Shown here: piece by piece, positions 15,373 to 30,112 of the stretch
Numbering within the stretch: the first letter of the stretch is position 1
How the letters are laid out: each line of letters opens with the position of its first letter
Source of the DNA: Thermodesulfobacteriota bacterium
GTDB lineage: Bacteria > Desulfobacterota > BSN033 > UBA1163
DNA length: 43,831 bases
Direction of reading: 5' to 3'
Assembly: GCA_026415035.1 (NCBI GenBank)
Contig: JAOAHX010000004.1
Span: 118,308-162,138, forward strand
Made by a program: the position numbers and the translations under genes
The notes under the pieces: generated by a model
Seen by the model: only the letters and a program-made list of their open reading frames with translations
What the model was told of the DNA's origin: nothing
The model's database searches: none

Positions 15373-16224
15373 TCACTTCCGGAGTCCTTCCCAATGTCTC
15401 TTAATCGCCGAAATGGCCTCCTCAATCTTAAGGGGCTCTCCAAAATCGAGGCCCTCTCGTTTCAACCCTTTGAAAAGTTTCGTCAAAGTGGGCACTTCGA
15501 GATTGAAACTCTCCAAATCCTCCACCTTCCCGAAGATCTCTTCGGGCGTCCCCCTCTCTCCCAGGTCTCCGTGGCCATGCATCAGGTAGAGGATGTCCGC
15601 GACCTCCGGTACGAGGTCCACCTCATGAAGGGTCATGATAAAGGTGATCCCTTTCGACCTGTTTAAATCGTTCAGGAGGCCGATCAACTCCCTCCTGGAA
15701 AGGGGATCGAGCCCGGTGAAGGGCTCATCGAGGATCAGAAGCTCGGGTTCCAGGACCAGGGCGCCGGCCAAGGCAACCTTCTTCTTCTCTCCTCCCGAGA
15801 GGTAATGGACGATCTTGCCTTGGATCGGTCCAAGATTCAAAAGGTCGATGACCTTTTCCGCAAGCCTCTCGGCCTCTTTTCGTTTCATCCCATAATTGAG
15901 GGGGGAAAAGAGGATATCGTCATAGACCGTGGGTCCGAGGATCTGTTCATCCACGTCTTGCATCACCACCCCGATCCTCTCCCGAATCCTGAAAAATTCC
16001 TTTGCCGGGTCGATCCCTAAAACTCTCACGCTCCCTTCCCTCGGGACCAGGATGCCTAAGAGATGCTTAAGGAGGGTCGTCTTTCCACAGCCGTTCGATC
16101 CGAGGATCGCCACCCGCTCCCCCCGATTGACGACGAAGTCGAGACCGCAGATCTGGACTTTGGTCCGGTCCGGATAGACATGGGTGATACAATCGACCTG
16201 AATCAATCGTTCCCCTCGGGGCAT
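15373..16224 (-). CDS. cbiO: Energy-coupling factor cobalt/nickel transporter ATPase
   Basis: A 283-residue ABC ATPase. Walker A GSNGCGKTT (42-50), Q-loop VVMQDVDEQI, signature LSGGEKKKVALAGAL, Walker B LLILDEPFTGLD, and switch His in TLHEVDL. The Q-loop form and FSPLNYGMKRKEAERL segment are typical of CbiO/EcfA ATPases. It would energise uptake through CbiM and CbiQ at the inner membrane face. It starts 4 bases after the cbiQ stop. The C-terminal 50 residues form a helical extension common in this family. Confidence 0.9.
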   Translation of the reverse strand: MPRGERLIQVDCITHVYPDRTKVQICGLDFVVNRGERVAILGSNGCGKTTLLKHLLGILVPREGSVRVLGIDPAKEFFRIRERIGVVMQDVDEQILGPTVYDDILFSPLNYGMKRKEAERLAEKVIDLLNLGPIQGKIVHYLSGGEKKKVALAGALVLEPELLILDEPFTGLDPLSRRELIGLLNDLNRSKGITFIMTLHEVDLVPEVADILYLMHGHGDLGERGTPEEIFGKVEDLESFNLEVPTLTKLFKGLKREGLDFGEPLKIEEAISAIKRHWEGLRK

Positions 16225-16228
16225 CCTC

Positions 16229-16855
16229 TCAGGCTCCTCGATGACGGATCTTGTGCCGAAACCCGCGGATCACCATCGCCTCATACATCTTTTCGCTCTC
16301 GTCGATCCCTTTGAGAATGAGATGGCCCAAGGCATGGGCGATATTGTGCAAGCTCCTCAGAGGATGCCTCCACCGTATCCCGCCTCGGAGGTAAAGGGAA
16401 TGATGGGTCTCCTCGAGCACCTTCAAAAGGAGAAAGGTGGAGCGGTAGGTCAGAAAGAGGGCGGTGACGAAGAGGGACGGGAGGAACCGTTCGAGGGTTG
16501 CGAAGATCATCGGGTACGGGGTGCTTGCCAGCAGGAGGACGACGCCGGTCGACCCGGAAAGGACCTTCAAGAAGACCAGGAGGACGAATCGGAGCTGAAA
16601 GTCGGAGAGGAAGAGGAAGAGGGTTGCGAAGAGGAGGGGGTAGAGGGTGAGGGGAAAGAGTTTCAGGGGAAGGCGACAGGCGAAGAAGAGGCCGAGGAGA
16701 AGGCCATAGAGGAGGAAAAGACCTAAAGGATCCTTCAGGAGGACCACGCCGCTTAAGACGGCGAGCAGGCCTGAGATCTTCAGCAAGGGAGAGCGACGAT
16801 GAAGAAAACCCCTTCCTTCGACCGCCAGATAATCGAGGTAAGAGAGTTGAATCAT
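16229..16855 (-). CDS. cbiQ: Energy-coupling factor transporter transmembrane protein
   Basis: A 208-residue membrane protein with several hydrophobic helices (about 27-60, 68-112, 120-150) and a charged cytoplasmic C-terminal part ending in MYEAMVIRGFRHK, the coupling region conserved in CbiQ/EcfT. It connects the substrate-binding CbiM to the CbiO ATPase. Seven bases separate it from cbiM. Confidence 0.88.
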   Translation of the reverse strand: MIQLSYLDYLAVEGRGFLHRRSPLLKISGLLAVLSGVVLLKDPLGLFLLYGLLLGLFFACRLPLKLFPLTLYPLLFATLFLFLSDFQLRFVLLVFLKVLSGSTGVVLLLASTPYPMIFATLERFLPSLFVTALFLTYRSTFLLLKVLEETHHSLYLRGGIRWRHPLRSLHNIAHALGHLILKGIDESEKMYEAMVIRGFRHKIRHRGA

Positions 16856-16862
16856 GAGCTCT

Positions 16863-17582
16863 TCACTCCAGCTTCAACAGGTCCGGCCTCAACCGATGGA
16901 GATATCGCAAGATCAGGGTGGTGAGGACTCCCTCCAGGCACCACCCGATGAGGCTCAGGGGGAGGAGAAGGGCGATGAACCGTTCGAAATGGACCGCTTC
17001 ACCCTTTTCTCCCCTCCCGTGGAGGTCGTCATGTCCTTTGAGGAGTTTGAACTCAAAGAGTCCATGGGCCTCGCCTCGATGGAGCAGCTCCTCGTAATGA
17101 GAAAGGCCAAGCCTCACCACGCCGACCATCGAAAAGGTAGATAGGCAGAGGGCGAGAAAGGTGGCGAGGAATGCGGCCGGGGTGAGCCTTCGCCACATCT
17201 TCCATAACAGTCTAAAGAAGAGGTACCCCCCTATCCCTTCGATCGAGAGGATGAGCGTGTTCAACCCGATCACCGTCACCCCGCCATGGCCAAAAAGGGC
17301 CAGAATGACGTTGACGACGAAGGTCGCCAAGAAGATGAGGGAAGGACCCAAGAGAATCCCCGAGACGACCATCAGATTGACATGGTAGGCGATGGGGACG
17401 ATCTCCACCGAAGCGCCGAGGACCATCGTGGCCGCCATCATCCCCAGCAGGGGAAGCCTCCGGCCGAGCACCTCCTTGTTCCTCCTCCGAACGAGGATAA
17501 ATCCCATCAGGATCGCAAGAATAAATCCCGAGGCCCACAACCACACGGGCAGAATCCCGTCGGGAAGATGAATATGGGACAT
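16863..17582 (-). CDS. cbiM: Cobalt/nickel-type substrate-specific transporter component
   Basis: A 239-residue membrane protein starting MSHIHLPDGILPVWLW, the metal-binding N-terminus of CbiM/NikM (His residues near the free N-terminus coordinate Co2+ or Ni2+). Six or seven hydrophobic segments follow, with GHGGVTVIGLNTL in the middle. A His/Asp-rich loop (KGHDDLHGRGEKGEAVHF) lies between the last helices. No separate cbiN gene is present; the loop may replace part of its role, but I cannot show that. ATG 17582 is preceded by GAGGAGAGAGG. Upstream Fur-family control suggests metal-responsive expression; the metal is undetermined. Confidence 0.88.
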   Translation of the reverse strand: MSHIHLPDGILPVWLWASGFILAILMGFILVRRRNKEVLGRRLPLLGMMAATMVLGASVEIVPIAYHVNLMVVSGILLGPSLIFLATFVVNVILALFGHGGVTVIGLNTLILSIEGIGGYLFFRLLWKMWRRLTPAAFLATFLALCLSTFSMVGVVRLGLSHYEELLHRGEAHGLFEFKLLKGHDDLHGRGEKGEAVHFERFIALLLPLSLIGWCLEGVLTTLILRYLHRLRPDLLKLE

Positions 17583-17658
17583 GACCCTCTCTCCTCAGAG
17601 CCCCTTCGAGAAATCCCCCGTCTGATCTCATTTCAGGGGCTTGGGGAAGGTCCGGTTT

Positions 17659-18096
17659 TCACCCCTGAGCTTGGGGCGGACCCTTGCAGGCCTGACAGAA
17701 TCCATAAAAATTCAGTTCGTGGTCCGTCACCTCATAACCGGTGGTTTCGGCCACCCGCTTCGACCAGTCGGAAATCTCGCAAAGTTCGATGTCGACCACC
17801 TCTCCACATCCTTTGCAGACGACGTGGTGGTGGTGCTGCTCCGTCTCGCAGAATTTATACCTGACGCTCGAACCTTCGACGATCCGGAACACGATGCCGA
17901 GGGATTCGAAGAGATCGAGACAACGATAGACCGAGGTGAGCCCCACCCTTCTCCTCTTCTTCAGCAGACCTCGATAGACTTCCAGTGGGCTCAACGGTGC
18001 CTTAGAAGCTGAAAGCTCTTCGAAGACGAAAAGCCTGGGCCGGCTCATCCTCAACCTCTTTTCGGAAGAGATCGTCTTTAAAACCTCTTTTGCCAT
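17659..18096 (-). CDS. Fur-family metalloregulator
   Basis: A 145-residue Fur-family repressor. The N-terminal winged helix spans about 12-82 (VGLTSVYRCLDLFESLGIV is the recognition region), followed by the dimerisation/metal domain with ETEQHHHHVVCKGCGEVVDIE and a second FCQACK pair, giving the two C-x2-C zinc-structural pairs. It could be Zur-, Nur- or Fur-like; sequence alone does not settle the metal. It leads the transcript containing cbiMQO, making nickel, cobalt or zinc plausible. There is no clear ribosome site before ATG 18096; ATG 18048 has AGAGG upstream but would cut into the first helix. Confidence 0.85.
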   Translation of the reverse strand: MAKEVLKTISSEKRLRMSRPRLFVFEELSASKAPLSPLEVYRGLLKKRRRVGLTSVYRCLDLFESLGIVFRIVEGSSVRYKFCETEQHHHHVVCKGCGEVVDIELCEISDWSKRVAETTGYEVTDHELNFYGFCQACKGPPQAQG

Positions 18097-18833: not shown

Positions 18834-21548
18834 TCACACGACTGCCTCCAGCAGACCCTGCACCATCGCTTTGGCTTCCGACTCCGAAAGACAGTATCTC
18901 ACCTCGGCAAATCTCTTCCGGAACCGGACCACCTCCTCGGCCACCGACCGACCATAAAGGATCACCTCGGCCAACAACTCGGCCAATTGTCCGAAGTCCT
19001 CCTCCTTCATCCCGAAACGGGTCATCTCCTGAACCCCCATCCTCAGACAGCTGGCCGCAGTGAAGGCCTCGTCGTCAGGGGCGGCCTGGTAGTTGACGAT
19101 GATGTTGTTCCGCTCCAGCTGCTCGGCCACGACAGGTCCTTTCCCATAACCGACCCGGACGATCACCTGATGGGTCTCGGTGTATCCTTTTTCCGGATCG
19201 CCCTCCACCATGATCCCCTGTTCCCTCAGGGACCGCGCAAAGGCCTTCGCATTGGAGAGAACCGCCTTCTGATACTCTTCCTTAAAGGCGTTCATCTCGT
19301 AAGCGGCCATGAGCAATCCCAAGAGGGTCCCGAGGTGGTGATTGCTGACACTGCCCGGAAAGACCCTTCGGACAATGGCCTCCCAGAGGTCTTCGTAAGG
19401 CGTCCCTTCGGACATGTTGCTTCCGATCACTCCCCGCTGGGGACCGAAGAAGGTCTTGTGGGTCGACCCGGTGACGAGATCTGCCCCCTCTTCGAAGGGC
19501 TCCTGAAAATAGGGCCCGATCAACCCGAGCACATGGGCCATATCGTAGTGGATGATCGGCCTCGGCTTCAGGGTTGAGGCCATCCGGACGATCTCCCTCA
19601 CGGGCTCTCGGTAAATGACCATGCTCTTTCCGAGGATGATCAATTCGGGTTTATGGACATCGATCAACTCCTCCGTCTTGACGAGGTCGATCTGATAGGG
19701 ATCGTCCTTCAGCACGGGAAAAGGGACGACCGAAGGCCGCTCGGTCAAGGGATCGATGGCGACGAAATCCCTGAGCGCGCCCATGGGCTGGGCGCTGAGA
19801 TGCCCTCCTCTCCCGAGATGGTGATTCATCACCTTCCGGATCCTTCGAGGCTCGCTCTTTCGGTCGAACCGATTGAGGAAGTCCACGATGCCGCTGAAGA
19901 CGGCGGTGTTGGCCATCTGGCCGCTGATCACCCTCACCTCGACCTCGGAACATCCGAGGAAACGGCGCATCTCCTCAACGAGCAAGGCTTCCACCTCTGC
20001 GATCAGTCTCGTCCCTTGGTAATAGAAGATGTCCCTCTCCCCCAGGGCCTTCACCACCCGGTGCTCCCCGTAGCGGTGCGAGGGGTCCATGATGGTGAGA
20101 AGCCTGACCAGAGGCGAAACCGTCTGCTCCGAGGGGATAAGGTTGATCGTCTCTTTCTGGCGCCAACGGGTGTTGTCGATCGCCTTTTCGACCAACCGCT
20201 TGGCCCGCGTTCTGAAATCCCTTTCGGCCTCTCCCCGGGCCTGGGTCTTTTTGGAAAGCAGGATGGGACGGGCATAAGGAGGAGCCTCTCCGGAGAGGTG
20301 TTTCTCCACGATAGCCCCCTCAAACGTCTTTCCTTTCTGTCGGATCTCCACCTTCTGTCCCGCTTCAAACTCGGCATCGATATAGGCCAATCCGATCGCC
20401 CTCATCCCTCTGTCTTCCGTAGGTCTGGAGAGGATCCCCTCGTCCGAGAAATGCCAGTATGGGATCAGCGTCCCGCTGGTCACAAAACCGACGCTCCGGC
20501 CGTCGATCGTGACCTCTGCGCCCGGCCTTGCGATGGCCTGTCTGCCCTCCCCACCACAGACCGCGAAGGGGACGATCCTCCTCGGGACGGCCTGTTTCTC
20601 GCGGGGAGGAAGGAGCTGCCCTTCTGCCCTCGCCTTCAACTCCTCGAACTGCCTTCGGAGGGCAGCCCTGCCGATGAACTCCCCCTTCAGGGGAGAGAAG
20701 CTGACGGCCAGACCCGCCGAATAGACGGCGAAGATGGGAATCTCTTTCCCCTCCTGGTCCGTCCCCAGTTCGTGCCCATAGAGGGGAAGGCCCGCCTCGA
20801 TCCTCAGGGTATCCCTTGCCCCCAACCCCACAGGCACGATCCCCTCTCGCTCTCCCGCGGCAAGGATGGCCTCCCAGATCATCCTGATCTTCTCGCTCTC
20901 GGAAAAGAGTTCGAAGCAGATCGGCTCTCCCGTATATCCGGTCCGCGAGATGGTGACCGCCACCCGAACCCCCTCGATCTCGCAGACCCTCAACCGGTTT
21001 CTCCAGGGATCGGGAAGCTTCGAATGGCTTTCGATGACGAGCTTCTCGAGCACCCTCTTCGTCGAGGGACCCTGGAGGGCAATCATCCCCATCGCTTCGC
21101 TCCGATCTTCGAGAACCACCCCTCGAAACCGCCTCTTATGTTCGATGAGCCAGTTCCAGTCCCTCGTGTGATTGGCGGCGTTGACCACCAGAAGGTATCT
21201 CGACTCCGAGGGAAGGTTCCCCATGTCGAGCCGGTAGAGATAGGCATCGTCGATGGCCTCGCCCCATTCGTTCTGGATCAAGGTGTACTGGGCCATGCCG
21301 TGCTCCAGGGCCAGGACGTTGTTCGTCAGGACCTGCTGAAGAAAAGGGATGGCCTCCTCTCCGTAGATCAGGAAGCGCCCCATATGGGAGATATCAAAGA
21401 GCCCCCCGTATTTCCGGGTCGCCAGGTGCTCCTCGATGATCCCCCCCGGATAGGAGATGGGCATCTCCCAACCCGCAAATTCCGCCATCTGCGCCCCGTG
21501 TTCCTTATGCCAAGCATGGAGGGGGGTGCGTTTCAATTCTTTTCCCAT
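18834..21548 (-). CDS. Fused aminomethyltransferase (GcvT) - serine hydroxymethyltransferase
   Basis: One uninterrupted 904-codon frame. Residues 1-430 are a GcvT/T-protein: FAGWEMPISYPGGIIEEH near the start, catalytic Asp in GEAIDDAY (100/101), RTGYTGE (202-208) and GLGARDTLRIEAGLPLYGHEL (241-261). Residues about 440-904 are SHMT fold: LIPSEQTVSPLV, a Y-G-E-H substitute for the usual Y-A-E-G (Glu495), YYQGTRLI, DMAHVLGLI (669-677) and PLP lysine K698 in GSTHKTFFGP. Both active sites look complete, though the SHMT half is divergent. The product would release methylene-THF from aminomethyl-H-protein and use it with glycine to make serine, or run in reverse. ATG 21548 has AAGGA 8 bases upstream. 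No separate gcvT or glyA is in the window. Confidence 0.9.
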   Translation of the reverse strand: MGKELKRTPLHAWHKEHGAQMAEFAGWEMPISYPGGIIEEHLATRKYGGLFDISHMGRFLIYGEEAIPFLQQVLTNNVLALEHGMAQYTLIQNEWGEAIDDAYLYRLDMGNLPSESRYLLVVNAANHTRDWNWLIEHKRRFRGVVLEDRSEAMGMIALQGPSTKRVLEKLVIESHSKLPDPWRNRLRVCEIEGVRVAVTISRTGYTGEPICFELFSESEKIRMIWEAILAAGEREGIVPVGLGARDTLRIEAGLPLYGHELGTDQEGKEIPIFAVYSAGLAVSFSPLKGEFIGRAALRRQFEELKARAEGQLLPPREKQAVPRRIVPFAVCGGEGRQAIARPGAEVTIDGRSVGFVTSGTLIPYWHFSDEGILSRPTEDRGMRAIGLAYIDAEFEAGQKVEIRQKGKTFEGAIVEKHLSGEAPPYARPILLSKKTQARGEAERDFRTRAKRLVEKAIDNTRWRQKETINLIPSEQTVSPLVRLLTIMDPSHRYGEHRVVKALGERDIFYYQGTRLIAEVEALLVEEMRRFLGCSEVEVRVISGQMANTAVFSGIVDFLNRFDRKSEPRRIRKVMNHHLGRGGHLSAQPMGALRDFVAIDPLTERPSVVPFPVLKDDPYQIDLVKTEELIDVHKPELIILGKSMVIYREPVREIVRMASTLKPRPIIHYDMAHVLGLIGPYFQEPFEEGADLVTGSTHKTFFGPQRGVIGSNMSEGTPYEDLWEAIVRRVFPGSVSNHHLGTLLGLLMAAYEMNAFKEEYQKAVLSNAKAFARSLREQGIMVEGDPEKGYTETHQVIVRVGYGKGPVVAEQLERNNIIVNYQAAPDDEAFTAASCLRMGVQEMTRFGMKEEDFGQLAELLAEVILYGRSVAEEVVRFRKRFAEVRYCLSESEAKAMVQGLLEAVV

Positions 21549-21608
21549 GGGTTCATCCTTTCTGTCCCGGTCTTCGATGCCTCTCTCTAACACATTTATC
21601 GACAGGGA

Positions 21609-22025
21609 TCATTCCCCGATGATCTTCACCAGGACCCGCTTCCTCCTCCTTCCATCAAACTCGCCATAAAAGATCTGCTCCCAGGGGCCCAAATCGAGCC
21701 TCCCCTCGGTCACGGCCACGACGACCTCCCTGCCCATCACCTGCCTCTTCAAATGGGCATCCGCATTGTCCTCTCCGATGTTGTGCCGGTACTGCCTCAC
21801 CGGCTCATGAGGCGCCAGCCTCTCAAGCCAGACCTCGAAATCGTGATGAAGGCCGGGCTCGTCGTCGTTGATGAAGACGGAGGCCGTAATGTGCATCGCA
21901 TTGACGAGGACCAACCCTTCGCGAATCCCGCTCTCCCGGAGGCAGGTGGCGACCTCCGGGGTGATGTTGATAAAGGCCCTCCGCGTGGGCACCTCGAACC
22001 AGAGCTCCTTCCGGTAGGACTTCAT
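21609..22025 (-). CDS. YjbQ/UPF0047 family protein
   Basis: A 138-residue member of the YjbQ family, annotated in databases as secondary thiamine-phosphate synthase from weak complementation data; its real role is uncertain. Family features visible: [51 protein letters not shown] and [14 protein letters not shown]. The conserved His/Asp/Glu residues suggest a metal-dependent active site. Length is exactly typical. ATG 22025 overlaps the patatin stop (ATGA, 22022-22025). Confidence 0.85.
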
Positions 22026-22915
22026 TCCAGCCTCCTTTCGATTCGAAGTCGGTTGAGGATCTCGAGGATCTTCGGAAGGGCCTCGGTGGCCGCTTTTTCT
22101 CCCTCCAAGATCGCCTCGTGTCTCTTCGAGAAGTCGGCAGACCCGATGTAGCCCACCTTCGGCCGAATCACCACATCGGCCTGCGACAGTTGAATTGCGG
22201 CCAGCTTCGAATACATGATGGTGATCGACTGAAGGAGCGTTTCGATCGTGTGCGTAGGGGGGGTCCGCTCCGAACTGGCCGAGATGTCCACGGCGATGAC
22301 CACATCCGCCCCCAGTCGCCTGGCCGCCTCAACGGCCACGGGGCTGACCACCCCGCCATCGACATAGAATCTTTCCCCGATCTTGACCGGTCTGAAAACC
22401 CCGGGGATGGCACAGCTGGCCCTCACCGCCTGGCCGGTGTTTCCTTTGCCAAAGACGGTCTCCTGACCGCTCTGGATCTCCGTGGCCACGGCATAAAAAG
22501 GGATCTTCAACCTCTCCATCGGCGTATGCTTCACCGTGCGGTTGACGAACTCTTCCAGTTTGTCTCCTCGGATGAACCCGTTCTCGGGCAAGACGAGGTC
22601 CACGATATCCTTCTGCTCAATCGTAAAGGACAACCTTTGGAGGTCAAAACCGCTAAGCCCATAGGCGTAGAAACTTCCGACCACACTGCCCACGCTCGTT
22701 CCGACGATCAGATGGACGGGGACCTTGTTCGTCTCGAGGACCTTGAGCACCCCGACATGGGCAAATCCCTTGGAGGCCCCCGCCCCCAAGACCAGGGCGA
22801 TCTTAGCCGGCCTGGGGAGGGGTTCGACCACCGGGGGAGGTTGGGTCTCCCTCACCGTGCAGGCCATCAGACATAGGAGAAATATCCCTGACGAGAAATA
22901 GATGAATCGCTTCAT
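22022..22915 (-). CDS. Patatin-like phospholipase lipoprotein (RssA-like)
   Basis: A 297-residue serine acyl hydrolase. A lipoprotein signal ([19 protein letters not shown]19) precedes a patatin domain: oxyanion loop [13 protein letters not shown], nucleophile S74 in GTSVG, and catalytic Asp186 in YVDGG. It belongs to the RssA/YlbK-like bacterial group and would act on phospholipids or acyl esters at the membrane. ATG 22915 was chosen because it starts the signal peptide and has GAGG 9 bases upstream. Its place among glycine/lipoate genes is unexplained. Confidence 0.85.
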
Positions 22916-23008
22916 TTCCGATTTCCTCACCTCCGCGGCCTTTTTAAGACATCCACCCTCCAGGCCCGATTCCATGGCCAGAGGTCTCTTTAAAAGATTC
23001 GTTCAAAA

Positions 23009-23057: not shown

Positions 23058-23921
23058 TTAAGAGAATCGGAGGCCGACCGATGCGAGCATCTCGGAGGCA
23101 TGGAAGGAACTTCTCACGAAGGGGCCCGAGGCCACCGCCCGAAAACCCATCTCCATGCCCATCTGTCGATACCGTTCGAACTCCTCAGGAGGGAGATACC
23201 TCCTAACGGGGAGACGGTCGATACGGGGCTGGAGATACTGGCCGATGGTCAGGAGGTCGCATCCCGCCTCCCGGAGATCTCTCATCACGTCCCGAACCTC
23301 TTCGGGTCTCTCCCCCAGGCCGAGCATGAGGCCCGATTTGGTGAGGATTTGAGGAGAGAGGTCTTTTGATCGATTCAATAGGCAAAGAGAGCGCCCGTAG
23401 TCGGCCTGCGGTCGGACCATGGGATAAAGCCGGGGGACGGTCTCGAGATTGTGATTGAGGACATCGGGCGAGGCCCCGAGCACCCGCTCGAGGGAAGAGA
23501 GGTCTCCCCGAAAATCCGGGATGAGGACTTCGACGCCGATGGCAGGGTCCTTCCTCCGGATCGCCTCGATCGTCCTCGCAAAGAAAGAGGCCCCCCCGTC
23601 TGGCAGGTCGTCGCGGGTGACGGAGGTGATGACCGCATAGCGGAGGCCCATCTGGGCCACGGCCTGGGCAACCCGCTCGGGCTCGTCTTCTTCCGGAGGA
23701 GAGGGGATGCCGTGACGAATCGCACAGAACCCACAGTCCCTCGTGCAGATCTCCCCCAGGATCAAAAACGTGGCGGTGCCCTGTGAAAAGCATTCGCCGA
23801 GGTTGGGACAGCGGGCCTCCTCGCAGACCGTGTGAAGAGCGGTCCTCTCAAGAAGGCCTTTCACCTTCAGAAGATCCGGATAGGGAGGAAGTCGCTTCTT
23901 CAGCCAAGGGGGTTTGACCAT
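23058..23921 (-). CDS. lipA: Lipoyl synthase
   Basis: A 287-residue radical SAM enzyme that inserts two sulfurs into octanoyl-protein. Auxiliary cluster motif C33-x4-C38-x5-C44 (CEEARCPNLGEC), radical SAM motif C59-x3-C63-x2-C66 (CTRDCGFC), and the C-terminal RSSFHA segment whose Ser ligates the auxiliary cluster. ATG 23921 follows GAGG at 9 bases and lies 16 bases after the lpd stop. It modifies the GcvH encoded in the same operon. Confidence 0.95.
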   Translation of the reverse strand: MVKPPWLKKRLPPYPDLLKVKGLLERTALHTVCEEARCPNLGECFSQGTATFLILGEICTRDCGFCAIRHGIPSPPEEDEPERVAQAVAQMGLRYAVITSVTRDDLPDGGASFFARTIEAIRRKDPAIGVEVLIPDFRGDLSSLERVLGASPDVLNHNLETVPRLYPMVRPQADYGRSLCLLNRSKDLSPQILTKSGLMLGLGERPEEVRDVMRDLREAGCDLLTIGQYLQPRIDRLPVRRYLPPEEFERYRQMGMEMGFRAVASGPFVRSSFHASEMLASVGLRFS

Positions 23922-23937
23922 GGGCGATGGCCTCAGC

Positions 23938-25341
23938 CTATCGTTTGGGGTGTAAGGGTCTGGGGAGGTGAAGCGCCAAGCCCTCCGCATCCAGACAGGC
24001 CTCCCTCAGCGCCTCCGGAAGGGTGGGATGGGCCTGGATGAATTGGGCGGCCTCCCTCAGCTTCCTTCCCAACATCGCCGAAGCCCAGGAGACGAGAAGG
24101 GTCGCCTCTGGGCCGACGATGTGGATCCCGAGGATCTCTCCTCCCTCGCGGTCTGCGACCACCTTGATCAGGCCATCGGTCTCTCCGGAAAGGACGGCTT
24201 TCGGATTGGACCGGAAAGGAAAGCGGCCGATCTTGACCTCTCCCCTCTTTTTGGCCTCGGCCTCGGTCAAACCGATGGAGGCCACCTCGGGAAGGCTGAA
24301 GATACAGAGGGGTATGGGAGGCGATTCCCACTCCCTCGGAAGCCCCAGGGCATGTTCGGCCGCCAAAATCCCCTGCTCCATGGCCACATGGGCCAGCATG
24401 ACCCCTCCGGTGGCGTCTCCGACCGCATAGACACGGGGGAGGGTCGTCTCCATGCTCGACCCGACCTTGATTCCCTTTGGAGAGACCTCGATGCCCACCT
24501 TCGAGAAGTCCTGTTCCAGCCGGGCGACCCTTCCGACGGCCACCAACAACTTCTCGGTGACTGCCTCCTCGAGCCCCTGAGGCGTCCGAAGCAGAAGCCT
24601 CAATCCCTCCCCATCGGATGTCACCTCTTCGACGGAGGACCGGGTCAAGATCCTGATCCCGTCTCGCTCCATGAAACGGCTGAGATGCCGAACCAGCTCG
24701 CCCTCCAGGCCTGGAAGGATCGTATCGAGGATCTCGACCACCGTCACCTTCGTCCCTAAGAGGTTGAAGAGGGTGGCGAACTCCACGCCGATGTAACCCC
24801 CTCCGAGGATCACCATCTGCCTGGGCAGGTCGGTAAGTTCCAGGGCCTCGTCGCTGTGAAGGACCTTGACTCCGTCATGGGGGATATGGGGGAGCTCCTT
24901 CGCCTTCGATCCCGGGGCGAGGATGATTGCGTCTGCTTCGAGCCTCTCCTCTCCCCCCTCCCGAGGAAAGAGGGCCACCCGGTCGGAGCTCAGAAGATCA
25001 GCCCGGCCTCTTCTCACCAAAACCCGATGAGATTCGAGCAGTCCTTCAACCCCTTTGGTCAGCTCCTCGATCACCCTCGCCTTCCGCTCCCTCATCGCCC
25101 CAAAGACCTCGGAAGGATCGATCGAGCAGGCCTTTCGAAACACCGGAGATCTCTTGATGGCGCCAAGGAGCTTGGCTTCGTGGAGAAGGGTCTTGGTGGG
25201 AATACATCCCCGGTGGAGACAGGTCCCGCCGATCTTCTCCCTCTCGATCAAGCTCACCTTTGCTCCCAATTGCGCGGCCCGAAGCGCGGCCACGTAGCCG
25301 CCCGGCCCGCCACCGATCACGATGATTCTCTTCGAGTCCAT
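23938..25341 (-). CDS. lpd: Dihydrolipoyl dehydrogenase (glycine cleavage L-protein)
   Basis: A 467-residue flavoprotein disulfide reductase that reoxidises dihydrolipoyl-GcvH with NAD+. FAD motif IIVIGGGPGGYVAA (6-19), redox disulfide C41/C46 in GGTCLHRGCIPTKT, NAD motif VILGGGYIGVEFA, second FAD motif YAVGDATGG, and C-terminal His-Glu pair in AHPTLPEAL. The first 25 bases overlap the end of lipB, indicating tight coupling. The likely substrate is the lipoamide of GcvH, as no 2-oxoacid dehydrogenase genes are nearby. Confidence 0.95.
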   Translation of the reverse strand: MDSKRIIVIGGGPGGYVAALRAAQLGAKVSLIEREKIGGTCLHRGCIPTKTLLHEAKLLGAIKRSPVFRKACSIDPSEVFGAMRERKARVIEELTKGVEGLLESHRVLVRRGRADLLSSDRVALFPREGGEERLEADAIILAPGSKAKELPHIPHDGVKVLHSDEALELTDLPRQMVILGGGYIGVEFATLFNLLGTKVTVVEILDTILPGLEGELVRHLSRFMERDGIRILTRSSVEEVTSDGEGLRLLLRTPQGLEEAVTEKLLVAVGRVARLEQDFSKVGIEVSPKGIKVGSSMETTLPRVYAVGDATGGVMLAHVAMEQGILAAEHALGLPREWESPPIPLCIFSLPEVASIGLTEAEAKKRGEVKIGRFPFRSNPKAVLSGETDGLIKVVADREGGEILGIHIVGPEATLLVSWASAMLGRKLREAAQFIQAHPTLPEALREACLDAEGLALHLPRPLHPKR

Positions 25342-26063
25342 GGGCGTCCCAGTGTCGGAGGAAGGCTCAACGTTTCTCTGCCCTCAGGGGTCCCGAGGAG
25401 CTCGTCCGGTCCTTTTTCCTCCCATTCCTTTGGAAAGGCCTCTTTGAAACGGAAAGAGAACCGCTCCACCAACCTCTGCCTCGAGACCGACTCCTTGAGG
25501 ATCTTCGCCATCGAAGTCATCCCTTGACCCTCGAGGCCACAGGGGTGGATCAGGTTGAAATATTTTAGGTCGGTCTCATAATTCAAGGCCAACCCGTGGA
25601 GGGAGACCCAACGTTTGATGGCCACACCGACCGAGGCGATCTTCTCCCCACCGACCCATACCCCGCGATGGGAAGGATCCCTCTTGCCGTCGATCCCGAA
25701 ATCCCTCAGGACGGCGAGGACCACTTCTTCCAGTTGGCTCACATAGGGATGGAGACGGTAACCATAGTGCCTCAGACCGAAGATCGGATAGGCAACCAGT
25801 TGGCCAGGACCGTGATAGGTGACATCCCCTCCGCGGTCCGTGTGGAAGACGGGGATCCCCAAGGCCTCTAAGACCTCCGGCGAGACGAGCAGATGGGCGA
25901 GGTCTCCCCGGCGGCCGAGGGTGATCACGTGGGGGTGCTCGAGGAGGAGCAGCAGATCCGGCAGCCGGCCCTCGACCCGCATCGACCAGAGCCGATGTTG
26001 AAGATCCCAAGCCTCTCCATAAGCCATCAGGCCGAGGTCGACCACGTATCCCTTAGGCTCCAT
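25317..26063 (-). CDS. lipB: Octanoyltransferase
   Basis: A 248-residue LipB that moves octanoyl from acyl carrier protein to the lipoyl domain lysine. Motif RGGDVTYHGPGQLVAYPIF (77-95), conserved K141 in GGEKIASVG, and acyl-accepting C175 in IHPCG. ATG 26063 is used; an upstream in-frame TTG is unlikely. The C-terminus is longer than usual by about 25 residues and overlaps lpd. Confidence 0.93.
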   Translation of the reverse strand: MEPKGYVVDLGLMAYGEAWDLQHRLWSMRVEGRLPDLLLLLEHPHVITLGRRGDLAHLLVSPEVLEALGIPVFHTDRGGDVTYHGPGQLVAYPIFGLRHYGYRLHPYVSQLEEVVLAVLRDFGIDGKRDPSHRGVWVGGEKIASVGVAIKRWVSLHGLALNYETDLKYFNLIHPCGLEGQGMTSMAKILKESVSRQRLVERFSFRFKEAFPKEWEEKGPDELLGTPEGRETLSLPPTLGRPWTRRESS

Positions 26064-26129
26064 CGGAGGACCCCTCCCTCCCAATATCGAATCTCGAAGG
26101 AGGCGCAGGTTCGAACGCCGCTTTCGATC

Positions 26130-27602
26130 TCAGGGATTGGGAGTCCATCTCAGCTTCGGCCTCCTCGCTGCCAACACCTCGTCAAGCCTCCTCGTCTTCA
26201 CCTTCGTCGGAGCCTGCCGGAGAAGCTCCGGGTTTTCCTCGGCCTCCCTTGCGATGGTGAGCATCGTCTCGACAAAACGGTCAAGCCCCTCCTTGCTCTC
26301 CGTCTCCGTCGGTTCCATCATGAGGGCTCCCTTCACCACGAGGGGGAAATAGATCGTGGGCGGGTGAAACCCATAGTCGATCAGTCGCTTGGCGATGTCG
26401 AGGGTCGAGACGCGGTGCTTCTCCTGATATCGGTCGGTGAAGACGCACTCGTGCATGCAGAGACGGTCGTAGGGGAGGTGGTAAGTTCCTTTCAGCCTCT
26501 TCATGAGGTAGTTGGCATTCAGGACCGCCATCTGGCTCGCCCTTTTGAGACCGTCGGCCCCCATGGAAAGGATGTAGGCATAGGCCTTCAGGGCCACCCC
26601 GAAATTTCCATAAAAGGCCTTCACCTTTCCGATGCTTTTGGGTCGGTCATAATCGAAGCGATACCGCTGTCCCTCCTTTTGGATCACCGGGACGGGCAGG
26701 TAGGGGGCGAGTTCCTTTTTGACCGCCAGCGGACCTGCCCCAGGACCCCCTCCTCCATGGGGCGTGGAGAAGGTCTTGTGTAAGTTGAGGTGAACCATAT
26801 CGATCCCCAGATCGCCCAGCTTGACCATGCCCATCAGGGCGTTCAGGTTGGCGCCGTCGCAGTAGACATATCCTCCCTTGCGGTGGACGATCTCCGCGAT
26901 CTCCGGAAGGTGCTCTTCGAAGAGCCCGAGGGTGTTCGGGTTGGTTACCATCAGGGCGGCCACATCCTCGTCCATCAAGCGGGCCACCTGCTCCGGACTG
27001 AGGATTCCTCTCTCGTTCGATTTGAGCTCGACCATCTGAAAGGAGGCGAGGGTCGAGGTGGAGCAGTTCGTTCCATGGGCCGTGTCCGGAACCAAGATCT
27101 TCTTACGACCTTCGCCCCGCTCGACCAAGGCCTTCCGGATCATCATCAGACCGGTCAGCTCTCCATGGGCCCCGGCAGCCGGCTGGAGGGTGACCTCATC
27201 CATGCCAACGATCTCGGCAAGGAATCTCCCCAGGTCGTAGAGAAGTTTGAGAACACCCTGGATCTGTTCCTCGGTTTGATAGGGATGGAGCTCGGAAAAC
27301 CCCTTCATCCTCGCAATCTCTTCGTTCACCTTCGGGTTGTACTTCATGGTACAGGAACCCAGAGGATAGAATCCGCTGTCCACCCCGTAATTCCACTGAG
27401 AGAGGCGGGTGAAATGGCGGACGACCTCCACCTCGCTCAGTTGAGGAAAGCCTTCGATCTCTCCCCTCAAGAGATGGGAGGGGATGCAAGATTCCTTTTC
27501 CACGGCTTCCACATCCCATGCCGGAAGGGAGTCGCCCCTTCTCCCCTCGCTCCCCTGCTCAAAAATCAAAGGCTCCTCCTGCAGAAGACCGTTATCCCTC
27601 AT
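26130..27602 (-). CDS. gcvPB: Glycine dehydrogenase (decarboxylating) subunit 2
   Basis: A 490-residue PLP subunit of the split P-protein. PLP lysine K276 lies in HLNLHKTFSTPHGGGGPG; YCDGANLNALMG, PAAGAHGELTGL and GSCTMKYNP are family signatures. With GcvPA it decarboxylates glycine and loads aminomethyl on lipoyl-GcvH. The split form is common in archaea, Firmicutes and many anaerobes. It starts 28 bases after gcvPA. Confidence 0.95.
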   Translation of the reverse strand: MRDNGLLQEEPLIFEQGSEGRRGDSLPAWDVEAVEKESCIPSHLLRGEIEGFPQLSEVEVVRHFTRLSQWNYGVDSGFYPLGSCTMKYNPKVNEEIARMKGFSELHPYQTEEQIQGVLKLLYDLGRFLAEIVGMDEVTLQPAAGAHGELTGLMMIRKALVERGEGRKKILVPDTAHGTNCSTSTLASFQMVELKSNERGILSPEQVARLMDEDVAALMVTNPNTLGLFEEHLPEIAEIVHRKGGYVYCDGANLNALMGMVKLGDLGIDMVHLNLHKTFSTPHGGGGPGAGPLAVKKELAPYLPVPVIQKEGQRYRFDYDRPKSIGKVKAFYGNFGVALKAYAYILSMGADGLKRASQMAVLNANYLMKRLKGTYHLPYDRLCMHECVFTDRYQEKHRVSTLDIAKRLIDYGFHPPTIYFPLVVKGALMMEPTETESKEGLDRFVETMLTIAREAEENPELLRQAPTKVKTRRLDEVLAARRPKLRWTPNP

Positions 27603-27630: not shown

Positions 27631-28980
27631 TCACCGGAGTTCCCCTTCGAGGAGTTCCGCCCACCGATCGATCTCCTCCCTCGTATTCATCTCCGTCACC
27701 GTGACGAGGAGGTGACGATCCAGCTCCGGGTAGAAACGGGCCAGAGGCAATCCGCCCAAGATCCCCTCGGCCTGCCACCGATGGAGAATCTGCTCCGGCT
27801 CCTCCTCCACCTCCAGGACGAATTCATTGAAGGTGGGACCGGAGAAGGCCAGGCGGCATCGCCCCATCCGAGAAACCCTCTTCTTGAGGTACTCGGCCTT
27901 GCTCAGGTTGATCCAGGCCAATTCCTTTAATCCCTCTTTTCCAAGGCAGGAAAGGAAGATCGTGGCCATCAGGGCACAGAGCCCCTCATTGGTGCAGATG
28001 TTGGAGGTCGCCTTCTCCCGACGGATATGCTGCTCCCGGGTCGCCAGCGTGAGGACGAAACCCCGCCTTCCCTCAAGATCGACGGTCTCCCCAACGAGAC
28101 GGCCGGGCATGCTCCGGACGAACCTCTCGCGGGTGGTGAAGATGCCGAGATAAGGGCCGCCGAAGGAGAGGGGAAGGCCGAGGCTTTGACCTTCGCCGGC
28201 CACGATATCCGCCCCGAATTCGCCGGGCGGCCTCAGGAGGCCATAGGCGATCGCCTCGGAGAAGGTGACGATCAGAAGCCCCCCTGCCTGATGGACCCTC
28301 TCCCCGATCGAAGAAAGGTCCTCAACGACGCCGAAGAAGTTGGGATTCTGGAGGATGACCGCGCTGACGTCCTGGTCGAGATGGCGGAGGAGGCTCTCCA
28401 TGTCCGTCCTGCCTTCCCCCCTAAGATAGGGAATCGGAACAATCCCCTCCAGCTCCGGATAGAGATAAGTCTTAACGACCTGACGGTATTCCGGATGGAC
28501 GGCCTCCGAGATCAGGATCTTTCTCCTTCCCGTAATGCGATGGGACATCAGGACCGCCTCAGCCAGGCTCGAGGCGCCGTCATACATGGAGGCATTCGAC
28601 ACCTCCATCCCGGTCAGTTGGCACATCAGGGTCTGGTACTCGTAGATGGCCTGGAGCGTGCCCTGACTGATTTCGGGCTGATATGGGGTATAGGCGGTGT
28701 AGAACTCGGAGCGGGAGGCGAGGTGAAAGACCACGGCGGGGATAAAATGGTGGTAGGCCCCGCCCCCGAGAAAACGAATGGGGCGACTTCCTTGAAGCCC
28801 TTCGAGATGGCCCAGGAGATCCTTTTCGGAAAGGGGCTCAGGAAGGTCCAAGGGCTCGTTGAGCCGATACGGTCTCGGAATGGCCTCGAAGAGGTCTTCG
28901 AGGCGATCGACGCCGATCGTCTCGAGCATCTCCCGGACCTCTGCCTCGGTCTGGGGAAGGTAGCGATGGGGACGCTTCAT
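27631..28980 (-). CDS. gcvPA: Glycine dehydrogenase (decarboxylating) subunit 1
   Basis: A 449-residue non-PLP half of the split P-protein. Typical features: RYLPQTEAEVREMLETIG start, LGGGAYHHFIPAVV, FYTAYTPYQPEISQGTLQ, EYQTLMCQLTGMEVSNASMYDGA and EGQSLGLPLSFGGPYLG. It pairs with GcvPB. Overlaps the gcvH stop (ATGA, 28977-28980). Confidence 0.95.
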   Translation of the reverse strand: MKRPHRYLPQTEAEVREMLETIGVDRLEDLFEAIPRPYRLNEPLDLPEPLSEKDLLGHLEGLQGSRPIRFLGGGAYHHFIPAVVFHLASRSEFYTAYTPYQPEISQGTLQAIYEYQTLMCQLTGMEVSNASMYDGASSLAEAVLMSHRITGRRKILISEAVHPEYRQVVKTYLYPELEGIVPIPYLRGEGRTDMESLLRHLDQDVSAVILQNPNFFGVVEDLSSIGERVHQAGGLLIVTFSEAIAYGLLRPPGEFGADIVAGEGQSLGLPLSFGGPYLGIFTTRERFVRSMPGRLVGETVDLEGRRGFVLTLATREQHIRREKATSNICTNEGLCALMATIFLSCLGKEGLKELAWINLSKAEYLKKRVSRMGRCRLAFSGPTFNEFVLEVEEEPEQILHRWQAEGILGGLPLARFYPELDRHLLVTVTEMNTREEIDRWAELLEGELR

Positions 28981-29366
28981 GCGTTCTCCTCCAAGATCTT
29001 TCCTCGATAGGCCTCTGCGGTGAGGAGGCCTTTGAGCTCCTCCCGATCCTCAGGCTCCATCCGGAGGAACCACCCCCGACCGTAAGGATCGCTGTTGACC
29101 CATTCTGGATGGTCTTTCAATTCGTGATTCTTTTCGACCACTCTCCCCGAGACCGGCGCATAGACATCCGCAACGGTCTTGACCGATTCGACCGCCCCCA
29201 TCGTCTCCCCTTTCTTGAATTCTGCGCCGACCTCCGGGAGATCGACATAGACGATGTCCTTCAATTGACTCTGGGCATAGTCCGTGATCCCCACGGTCGC
29301 GAGTCGCCCATCGTCTCTCACCCATTCATGCTCTTCCGTGTAGAGCAGGTCTTCGGGGAAGTTCAT
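28977..29366 (-). CDS. gcvH: Glycine cleavage system H protein
   Basis: A 129-residue lipoyl carrier. The lipoylated lysine is K63 in GAVESVKTVADVYAP; the N-terminal YTEEHEWV and the YGRGWFLRM stretch are standard. It shuttles the aminomethyl group from GcvPAB to the GcvT part of the fusion and electrons to Lpd. ATG 29366 has a strong AGGAGGAG ribosome site. Confidence 0.96.
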   Translation of the reverse strand: MNFPEDLLYTEEHEWVRDDGRLATVGITDYAQSQLKDIVYVDLPEVGAEFKKGETMGAVESVKTVADVYAPVSGRVVEKNHELKDHPEWVNSDPYGRGWFLRMEPEDREELKGLLTAEAYRGKILEENA

Positions 29367-29420: not shown

Positions 29421-29837
29421 CTATTTCAACTCCTCCAGCGGGACGTTGATCGTCACCTCGAGGCAGGAGATGTGTCTCAACTCCCCTTCCACCCGGACCA
29501 TATGTCTGGACGTCTTGGGAGCCATCCTCTTGCCGCTCAGGGCGGTATGGATGATCATCTCTTTGGTGATCACCTCGCCCTCCCGCCAAGGAAGGACCTC
29601 GATCTCGGGAGAGCGGTAATCGACCAAGATGGCTGGGATCCTTTTACACCCGATCCTTTTCAAGGCGTGGAGACGATGGTGCCCGTCCAGGATGATGTAG
29701 GTGTGGCGATCCACAGCGATGGGCATTTTGAGGATCCCATCGGAGAGGATTTCGTTCTTCAGCTCCTCGAGGTACTGAGGTCGAATCTCCTCATGTTCTC
29801 TCAGTGAGTCAATGCTGAGGTAGACGACCTCCACCAT
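29421..29837 (-). CDS. ParB/SerK-like protein, possible serine kinase
   Basis: A 138-residue ParB N-terminal-domain protein: YLSIDSLREHEEI (E16/E17), YLEELKNEILSDGILKMPI, then ILDGHHRLHALKRIG (DGHHR 51-55) and a C-terminal APKTSRHMV. This arrangement, with HEE followed by DGHHR and a PKTSRH segment, is what I recall for SerK/SbnI-type free-L-serine kinases rather than for plasmid-partition ParB, and there is no helix-turn-helix. It is shorter than archaeal SerK (about 240 residues), so activity is not certain. It is the first gene after the glycine riboswitch and lies 54 bases before gcvH. If it phosphorylates serine it would link glycine cleavage to O-phosphoserine. ATG 29837 has GGAG/GAGG upstream. 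Confidence 0.6.
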   Translation of the reverse strand: MVEVVYLSIDSLREHEEIRPQYLEELKNEILSDGILKMPIAVDRHTYIILDGHHRLHALKRIGCKRIPAILVDYRSPEIEVLPWREGEVITKEMIIHTALSGKRMAPKTSRHMVRVEGELRHISCLEVTINVPLEELK

Positions 29838-29859: not shown

Positions 29860-29900
29860 ACAGGGGGAGGGCAATCGAATCCCGATCTCCCTCCCCCTGT
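29860..29900 (-). terminator. Riboswitch expression-platform hairpin
   Basis: A perfect 12-bp stem, ACAGGGGGAGGG / CCCTCCCCCTGT (arms 29889-29900 and 29860-29871), starts 5 bases after the second aptamer and is followed by TGTTTCT, a weak T-rich tract. It is placed as an attenuator between the aptamers and the first gene. Confidence 0.65.
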
Positions 29901-29905
29901 CTTTT

Positions 29906-30103
29906 GACCTGAGAGATTATCCCTCTGAGGGATTTGTCCCCGTCGGTGTCCCCTCCTCCGTACCATCGTCGGTCCTCTACAGGCGAAGGCGGGAGCTTTC
30001 CAGGGGTCAGCTGGGTTACAGTCCTTTTGCCTGAGAGTTTCCTTCCGAAAAGCTCGGAACTTGCCCCTTCGGCGTCCCTTCCGAGGGATCTCTCCTGTAA
30101 CCC
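29906..30103 (-). promoter_or_regulatory. Tandem glycine riboswitch
   Basis: Two glycine aptamers in series on the minus strand. Aptamer 1 (30013-30103) is closed by a 9-bp P1, GGGTTACAG / CTGTAACCC, and contains GGAGAGA, GCCGAAGGGGCAAG and ACTCTCAGGCAAAAGGAC. Aptamer 2 (29906-29974) has GACC/GGTC ends, ACACCGACGGGGACAAAT and AATCTCTCAGGTCAAAAG. These are the conserved cores of the gcvT RNA class. It controls the SerK-like gene and the downstream gcv genes; most such riboswitches turn genes on with glycine. Confidence 0.93.
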
Positions 30104-30112
30104 TTAATCGAT

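Follow-up and report, generated by a model that had tools for sequence, protein, structure and literature searches.

A putative bifunctional fusion of GcvT and serine hydroxymethyltransferase in a riboswitch-headed glycine cleavage gene cluster of Desulfobacterota

GcvT, the T-protein of the glycine cleavage system, finishes the breakdown of glycine to a one-carbon unit, and serine hydroxymethyltransferase (SHMT) joins such a unit to glycine to form serine. The chemistry of both reactions is well established, both steps are reversible, and the two enzymes are textbook neighbours with 5,10-methylene-tetrahydrofolate (methylene-THF) in common. GcvT-like folate domains fused to another enzyme are found in sarcosine and dimethylglycine oxidases and dehydrogenases, where the partner is a flavin amine oxidase. 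In Pseudomonas aeruginosa, the gcs2 cluster (gcv genes, glyA, and a serine dehydratase gene) provides a glycine-induced route from glycine to serine with separate proteins and under the control of the GcsR protein (PMC13104608). Of tandem glycine riboswitches, 81% precede genes of glycine catabolism, which they are supposed to activate (PMC13104608).

The locus described here would serve the same route as gcs2, but its T-protein and SHMT are fused and its cluster is headed by a riboswitch. In contrast to the sarcosine and dimethylglycine enzymes, the partner of the GcvT domain is an SHMT, which would be able to consume methylene-THF. The window, that is, the whole stretch of 43,831 nucleotides analysed, contains the gcvT-glyA fusion gene at 18834..21548 on the minus strand. 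It encodes 904 amino acids, starting with ATG at 21548 and with the stop codon ending at 18834; the frame is free of internal stops over all 904 codons, and the gene is kept in 35 aligned fusions. An alternative in-frame GTG start is possible at 21593, but the ATG agrees with the conserved starts of close relatives. Pfam domains GCV_T (residues 10-265, 256 bits), GCV_T_C (residues 383-417, 36.6 bits), and SHMT (PF00464, residues 453-858, 123 bits against a cut-off of 27) all score above their cut-offs. The frame, coordinates, domain limits, and pyridoxal phosphate (PLP) lysine K698 given in a preliminary description were all correct, with the minus strand to be added. Its statement that one polypeptide holds two normally separate enzymes, beside a full glycine cleavage gene set, is likewise borne out. 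No model for a combined GcvT-SHMT protein was found when the fusion was scanned against NCBIfam.

The two halves are joined by a variable linker of 27 residues (426-452; 20193..20273, minus strand), recognised by divergence between relatives and by low model confidence at residues 434-437. Linker identity is 37-48% between congeners, with dN/dS of 0.24-0.50, and 27-33% in two other genera of the host's family. In both halves dN/dS is about 0.04-0.10 where dS could be estimated, and 0.04-0.09 against congeners, although dS is saturated and the ratios are rough. Both the GcvT and the SHMT halves are under strong purifying selection.

The GcvT half (residues 1-425; 20274..21548, minus strand) is defined by PF01571 and PF08669, by alignments to PDB structures, and by invariant columns. 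Its PDB relatives are the T-proteins of Bacillus subtilis, Thermotoga maritima, Pyrococcus horikoshii, and Escherichia coli. It scores 242.6 bits with TIGR00528, over the cut-off of 235.85, and 298 bits with PRK00389, just under the cut-off of 300. Residues Y83, D96, Y188, E195, and R227 of the T. maritima protein, which we take to be the conserved Asp and folate-pocket residues of T-protein, align with Y88, D101, Y205, E213, and R245 of the fusion. These residues, including the whole Asp pair D100/D101, are invariant in the aligned fusions. The half shares with ordinary GcvT (1yx2, 1wos, 3a8i) the full-length domain, the folate-site and catalytic residues, and the company of gcvH, gcvP, and lpd. 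It differs in its length (about 430 residues instead of about 360), in insertions in the C-terminal part, and in the attached SHMT.

The SHMT half (residues 453-904; 18834..20192, minus strand) is placed by PF00464, by Foldseek matches to 4bhd and 4uqv, and by the residue map in an archaeal-like, divergent SHMT clade. It shares the fold of GlyA (PF00464, PRK00011) and all its catalytic residues. The 11 catalytic and PLP residues of E. coli GlyA (S35, E36, Y55, E57, Y65, H126, D200, H203, H228, K229, and R363) are invariant in all 35 fusions. The PLP Schiff-base lysine K229 aligns with K698 of the fusion (codon at 19455..19457, minus strand), which lies in the motif GSTHKTFFG, also in 35 of 35. 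At the folate site E495, Y509, and L584 are kept, while E. coli N347 is replaced by Q821 in every fusion. E. coli GG262-263 corresponds to SN, as in the Methanocaldococcus jannaschii SHMT (4bhd, 4uqv). This is the nearest solved relative, with the motifs VSNHH and GSTHKTFFG in common. Relative to both GlyA and the M. jannaschii enzyme, the half belongs to a divergent bacterial clade, marked by YG/AEH, by Q in place of N347, and by loops lengthened at about residues 496-508 and 553-568, and it has GcvT attached N-terminally. With PRK00011, the curated model of bacterial glyA, it reaches 247 bits where the cut-off is 335; to judge from its sequence, it is related to SHMT by fold but falls outside the canonical bacterial subfamily.

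Altered specificity had been suggested from the motif YGEH in place of YAEG. This motif reads Y493-G-E495-H, of which Tyr and Glu are the invariant catalytic Y55 and E57 of E. coli, and YG/AEH is common to unfused relatives. The fusion is, moreover, the only SHMT in the host's family. Therefore, YGEH is rejected as a signature of specificity; YG/AEH marks a wider SHMT clade.

The monomer model of the fusion, built from the 35-sequence alignment, has a pLDDT of 83.7 and a pTM of 0.80. Its first half retrieves GcvT structures (1yx2, 1wos) with Foldseek and its second half SHMT structures (4bhd, 4uqv), with TMt up to 0.88 to 4uqv. The active-site loop 578-586, which holds H583, is poorly modelled. 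Note that SHMT active sites sit at the dimer interface.

The fusion gene lies downstream in a run of genes on one strand (minus). A tandem glycine riboswitch (29893..30111; RF00504, 69.1 bits against a gathering score of 32) heads the cluster, and both of its aptamers are covered by the two-aptamer model RF03166 at 30111-29893 (87.8 bits, below its gathering score of 110). It is followed by a gene for a SerK/ParB-fold protein with a DGHHR motif (29421..29837, partial NCBIfam match), whose start was set to the Met at 29837 because the riboswitch overlaps the start of the longer frame. Profile matches identify the next genes as gcvH (28977..29366), gcvPA (27631..28980), gcvPB (26130..27602), lipB for octanoyltransferase (25317..26084), lpd for the L-protein (23938..25341), and lipA for lipoyl synthase (23058..23990). 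Genes for a patatin-like (RssA-like) protein (22022..22975) and, directly upstream of the fusion, a YjbQ/UPF0047 protein (21609..22025) complete the run; they were assigned by profile matches and the neighbourhoods of relatives.

The cluster with its riboswitch is also found in congeners and in another genus of the family; in three of these four cases both aptamers exceed the RF00504 cut-off. Linkage of the fusion to gcvH or gcvP extends to several families and to a Spirochaetaceae genome. In family f70 (L148) a gap of some 60 nt separates the start codon of the fusion itself from the end of a glycine riboswitch (37.8 bits) upstream. By analogy with other tandem glycine riboswitches, the one in the window very probably switches its cluster on at high glycine. 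Since in some congeners other genes lie between the fusion and the rest of the cluster, we only infer that the riboswitch reaches the fusion by co-transcription.

Several neighbouring genes deserve mention. The match of the SerK/SbnI-like ParB-fold protein (REHEEIRP...DGHHR) to SerK is partial and far under the cut-off; the protein could phosphorylate serine from the fusion or be a regulator. In family f51 a longer SerK-like relative (L158:5131-6030) directly follows the fusion. The patatin-like and YjbQ/UPF0047 genes accompany the cluster across the family, and we know of no link between them and glycine metabolism. On the other side of the fusion, at 15373-18096 on the minus strand, there is a gene for a Fur-family regulator (17659-18096, NCBIfam match), followed by CbiM-type metal transporter-like genes, named from sequence only.

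The fusion is uncommon but widespread. Among 395 genomes sampled evenly from the phylum, 33 carry a fused frame in which both halves were matched. These genomes belong to 12 families, and most of the frames are 884-972 aa long. In a sample from the phylum of Sporomusa the fusion is found in two of 398 genomes, and it is carried by the isolates Sporomusa ovata DSM 2662 and S. silvacetica DSM 10669. Together with the Spirochaetaceae genome, these occurrences answer the call in the preliminary description for a search for the same domain order. A scan of relatives with one genome per species gave 19 loci: 13 fused (contig-edge and split forms included), one GcvT from a draft genome in which the frame changes at the join (L021), and five unfused SHMTs.

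The genome of the host (3.06 Mb, 97% complete) yields a single match to SHMT and a single match to GCV_T, and both are the fusion. A search that does pick up canonical GlyA next to the fusion in other genomes found no second SHMT or GcvT in this one; the separate gcvT and glyA that it had been proposed to look for are both absent. All 17 sampled genomes of the host's family have exactly one SHMT match. For 14 of these genomes the matched frame is 901-961 aa long; the remaining three have contig-edge or split pieces. The fusion is also the sole SHMT in families f21 (6/6) and f70 (1/1), and the sole ordinary GcvT there, with the exception of a GCV_T protein of about 770 aa in one genome (G169). 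Most other fusion-bearing families of Desulfobacterota have canonical GlyA too, with the fusion still their only ordinary T-protein; extra GCV_T matches in these families come for the most part from frames of some 800 aa, which are dimethylglycine-dehydrogenase-like by length alone.

Sporomusa and two further genomes (G525 and G062) have both a separate GlyA and a separate GcvT besides the fusion. Because of the separate canonical GlyA in Sporomusa and several Desulfobacterota families, and the separate GcvT in Sporomusa and G062, the role of the fusion there may be accessory or specialised. In the two Sporomusa loci (L008, L013), where the fusion stands besides canonical GlyA and separate GcvT, no glycine-cleavage genes were recognised within 8 kb. 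Among the genes scanned around the fusion in Sporomusa, Desulfatitalea, and family f21, none was recognised as a folate or glycine gene.

A quick tree (no bootstrap) unites all 35 fused SHMT halves in a single clade (SH-aLRT 97). Next to it stand divergent SHMTs without a fusion partner, from WOR-3, TA06, Aminicenantes, and Fermentibacterota, and canonical GlyA is distant. The sister clade consists of stand-alone YAEH SHMTs (WOR-3, TA06, Aminicenantes, Sabulitectum; L015-L018, L020), which are 53-58% identical to the fused halves and have no GcvT attached; those genomes have a separate, different GcvT gene. The fused GcvT halves also group together in a quick tree, with three stand-alone frames nested inside (two in family f4, and L021), and their sister group is made up of stand-alone GcvTs from gcvT-gcvH-gcvPA-gcvPB operons. 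Since the stand-alone GcvTs of family f4 (L128 and L129, in genomes G020 and G096) nest among fused ones, the SHMT half was probably lost secondarily in this family. Both of these genomes have a separate divergent SHMT elsewhere. The simplest reading of the trees would be that the fusion arose once and spread later to Sporomusa and to a Spirochaetaceae genome.

We consider it likely that the single chain is bifunctional, combining GcvT (EC 2.1.2.10) and SHMT (EC 2.1.2.1) in a glycine-induced cluster that turns two glycines into serine. GcvP, GcvH, and Lpd of the same cluster would load the aminomethyl group onto lipoyl-GcvH. The GcvT half would take it from there, freeing NH3 and forming methylene-THF, and the SHMT half would pass the one-carbon unit to a second glycine bound to the PLP of K698 to give serine. 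At abundant glycine the net result would be serine, CO2, and NH3 from two glycines; in reverse, the SHMT half would convert serine to glycine and methylene-THF. We infer both activities, THF as the carrier, the ON logic of the riboswitch, and the net direction. Points that weigh against this reading are Q821 at the folate site, the poorly modelled active-site loop, the separate GlyA and GcvT of some fusion-bearing genomes, and the genes that part the fusion from its cluster in some congeners. The sole-copy status of the fusion points to THF-dependent interconversion of serine and glycine by its SHMT half. The host genome also encodes formate-THF ligase, acetyl-CoA synthase, and SerA with an adjoining SerC-like gene. 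Given these enzymes and the reversible steps, the Wood-Ljungdahl branch could also draw on methylene-THF or be a source of it.

Could the join be an artefact of sequencing or assembly? The majority of the genomes are metagenome assemblies, and broken frames do occur in a few drafts, all of them singletons: L011 is split inside GcvT, L021 changes frame at the join, and others are contig-edge fragments. The same join is, however, intact in dozens of assemblies made independently, as well as in the two Sporomusa isolates, and the fused SHMT halves are one clade. Full-length fused relatives occur in many species at 52-84% identity, with both GCV_T and SHMT in 35 of 35 aligned members, so that an artefact or a chance frame is ruled out for practical purposes. 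It is also highly improbable that one half is degenerate and retained merely as a scaffold. The apparent loss of the SHMT half in family f4 would fit such a role, but the catalytic residues of both halves are all invariant and purifying selection is similarly strong on the two. Slightly less remote, and still very unlikely, is an SHMT half that acts as a folate-independent aldolase or transaldolase, like threonine aldolase or fluorothreonine transaldolase, with no SHMT activity. The low PRK00011 score, the change to Q821, and the lengthened loop at about 496-508 would agree with this, as would a match to the fluorothreonine transaldolase model TIGR04506. This match is weak (155 bits against a cut-off of 650), and fluorothreonine transaldolase was rejected as an identity. 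Against an aldolase, the top matches are SHMT models, the top structures are of an archaeal SHMT, the folate-facing E495, Y509, and L584 are retained, and none of the sampled genomes of the host's family has another SHMT.

The other rival accepts the bifunctional enzyme and changes its direction. In a mainly reductive mode, methylene-THF, CO2, and NH3 would give glycine, and glycine with further methylene-THF would give serine, beside the Wood-Ljungdahl pathway. In its favour are the reversibility of both reactions, the formate-THF ligase and acetyl-CoA synthase of the host, and a working reductive glycine pathway in Desulfovibrio desulfuricans (PMC7547702). But the cluster is headed by a tandem glycine riboswitch, a type that is mostly an ON-switch of glycine catabolism (PMC13104608), and acetyl-CoA synthase and SerA of the host could supply C2 units and serine. 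We regard this mode as unlikely, and the conversion of two glycines to serine, one of the two directions in the preliminary description, gains support from the riboswitch. A stronger form of the glycine-to-serine reading is a dedicated synthase, in which the GcvT site hands methylene-THF to an SHMT site within the same chain or dimer, so that it bypasses the free folate pool. We propose this tentatively, as a possibility with less in its favour than bifunctionality itself. If true, glycine cleavage would be coupled to serine formation and the one-carbon pool kept separate.

The fusion is a new arrangement of known enzymes and not a new activity. No mention of it was found in the open-access papers searched on the reductive glycine and Wood-Ljungdahl pathways of Desulfobacterota, on D. 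desulfuricans, and on T. phaeum, nor in the main text of a 2026 study of SHMT and glycine cleavage system phylogeny in Desulfobacterota (PMC12827605). For annotation, genomes scored as having no glyA or no stand-alone gcvT may hold both in a fusion gene. With whole families that have no other SHMT, such a widely conserved natural fusion would offer a direct handle on possible one-carbon exchange between the two active sites, a matter that bears on plant photorespiration and on engineered reductive-glycine pathways.
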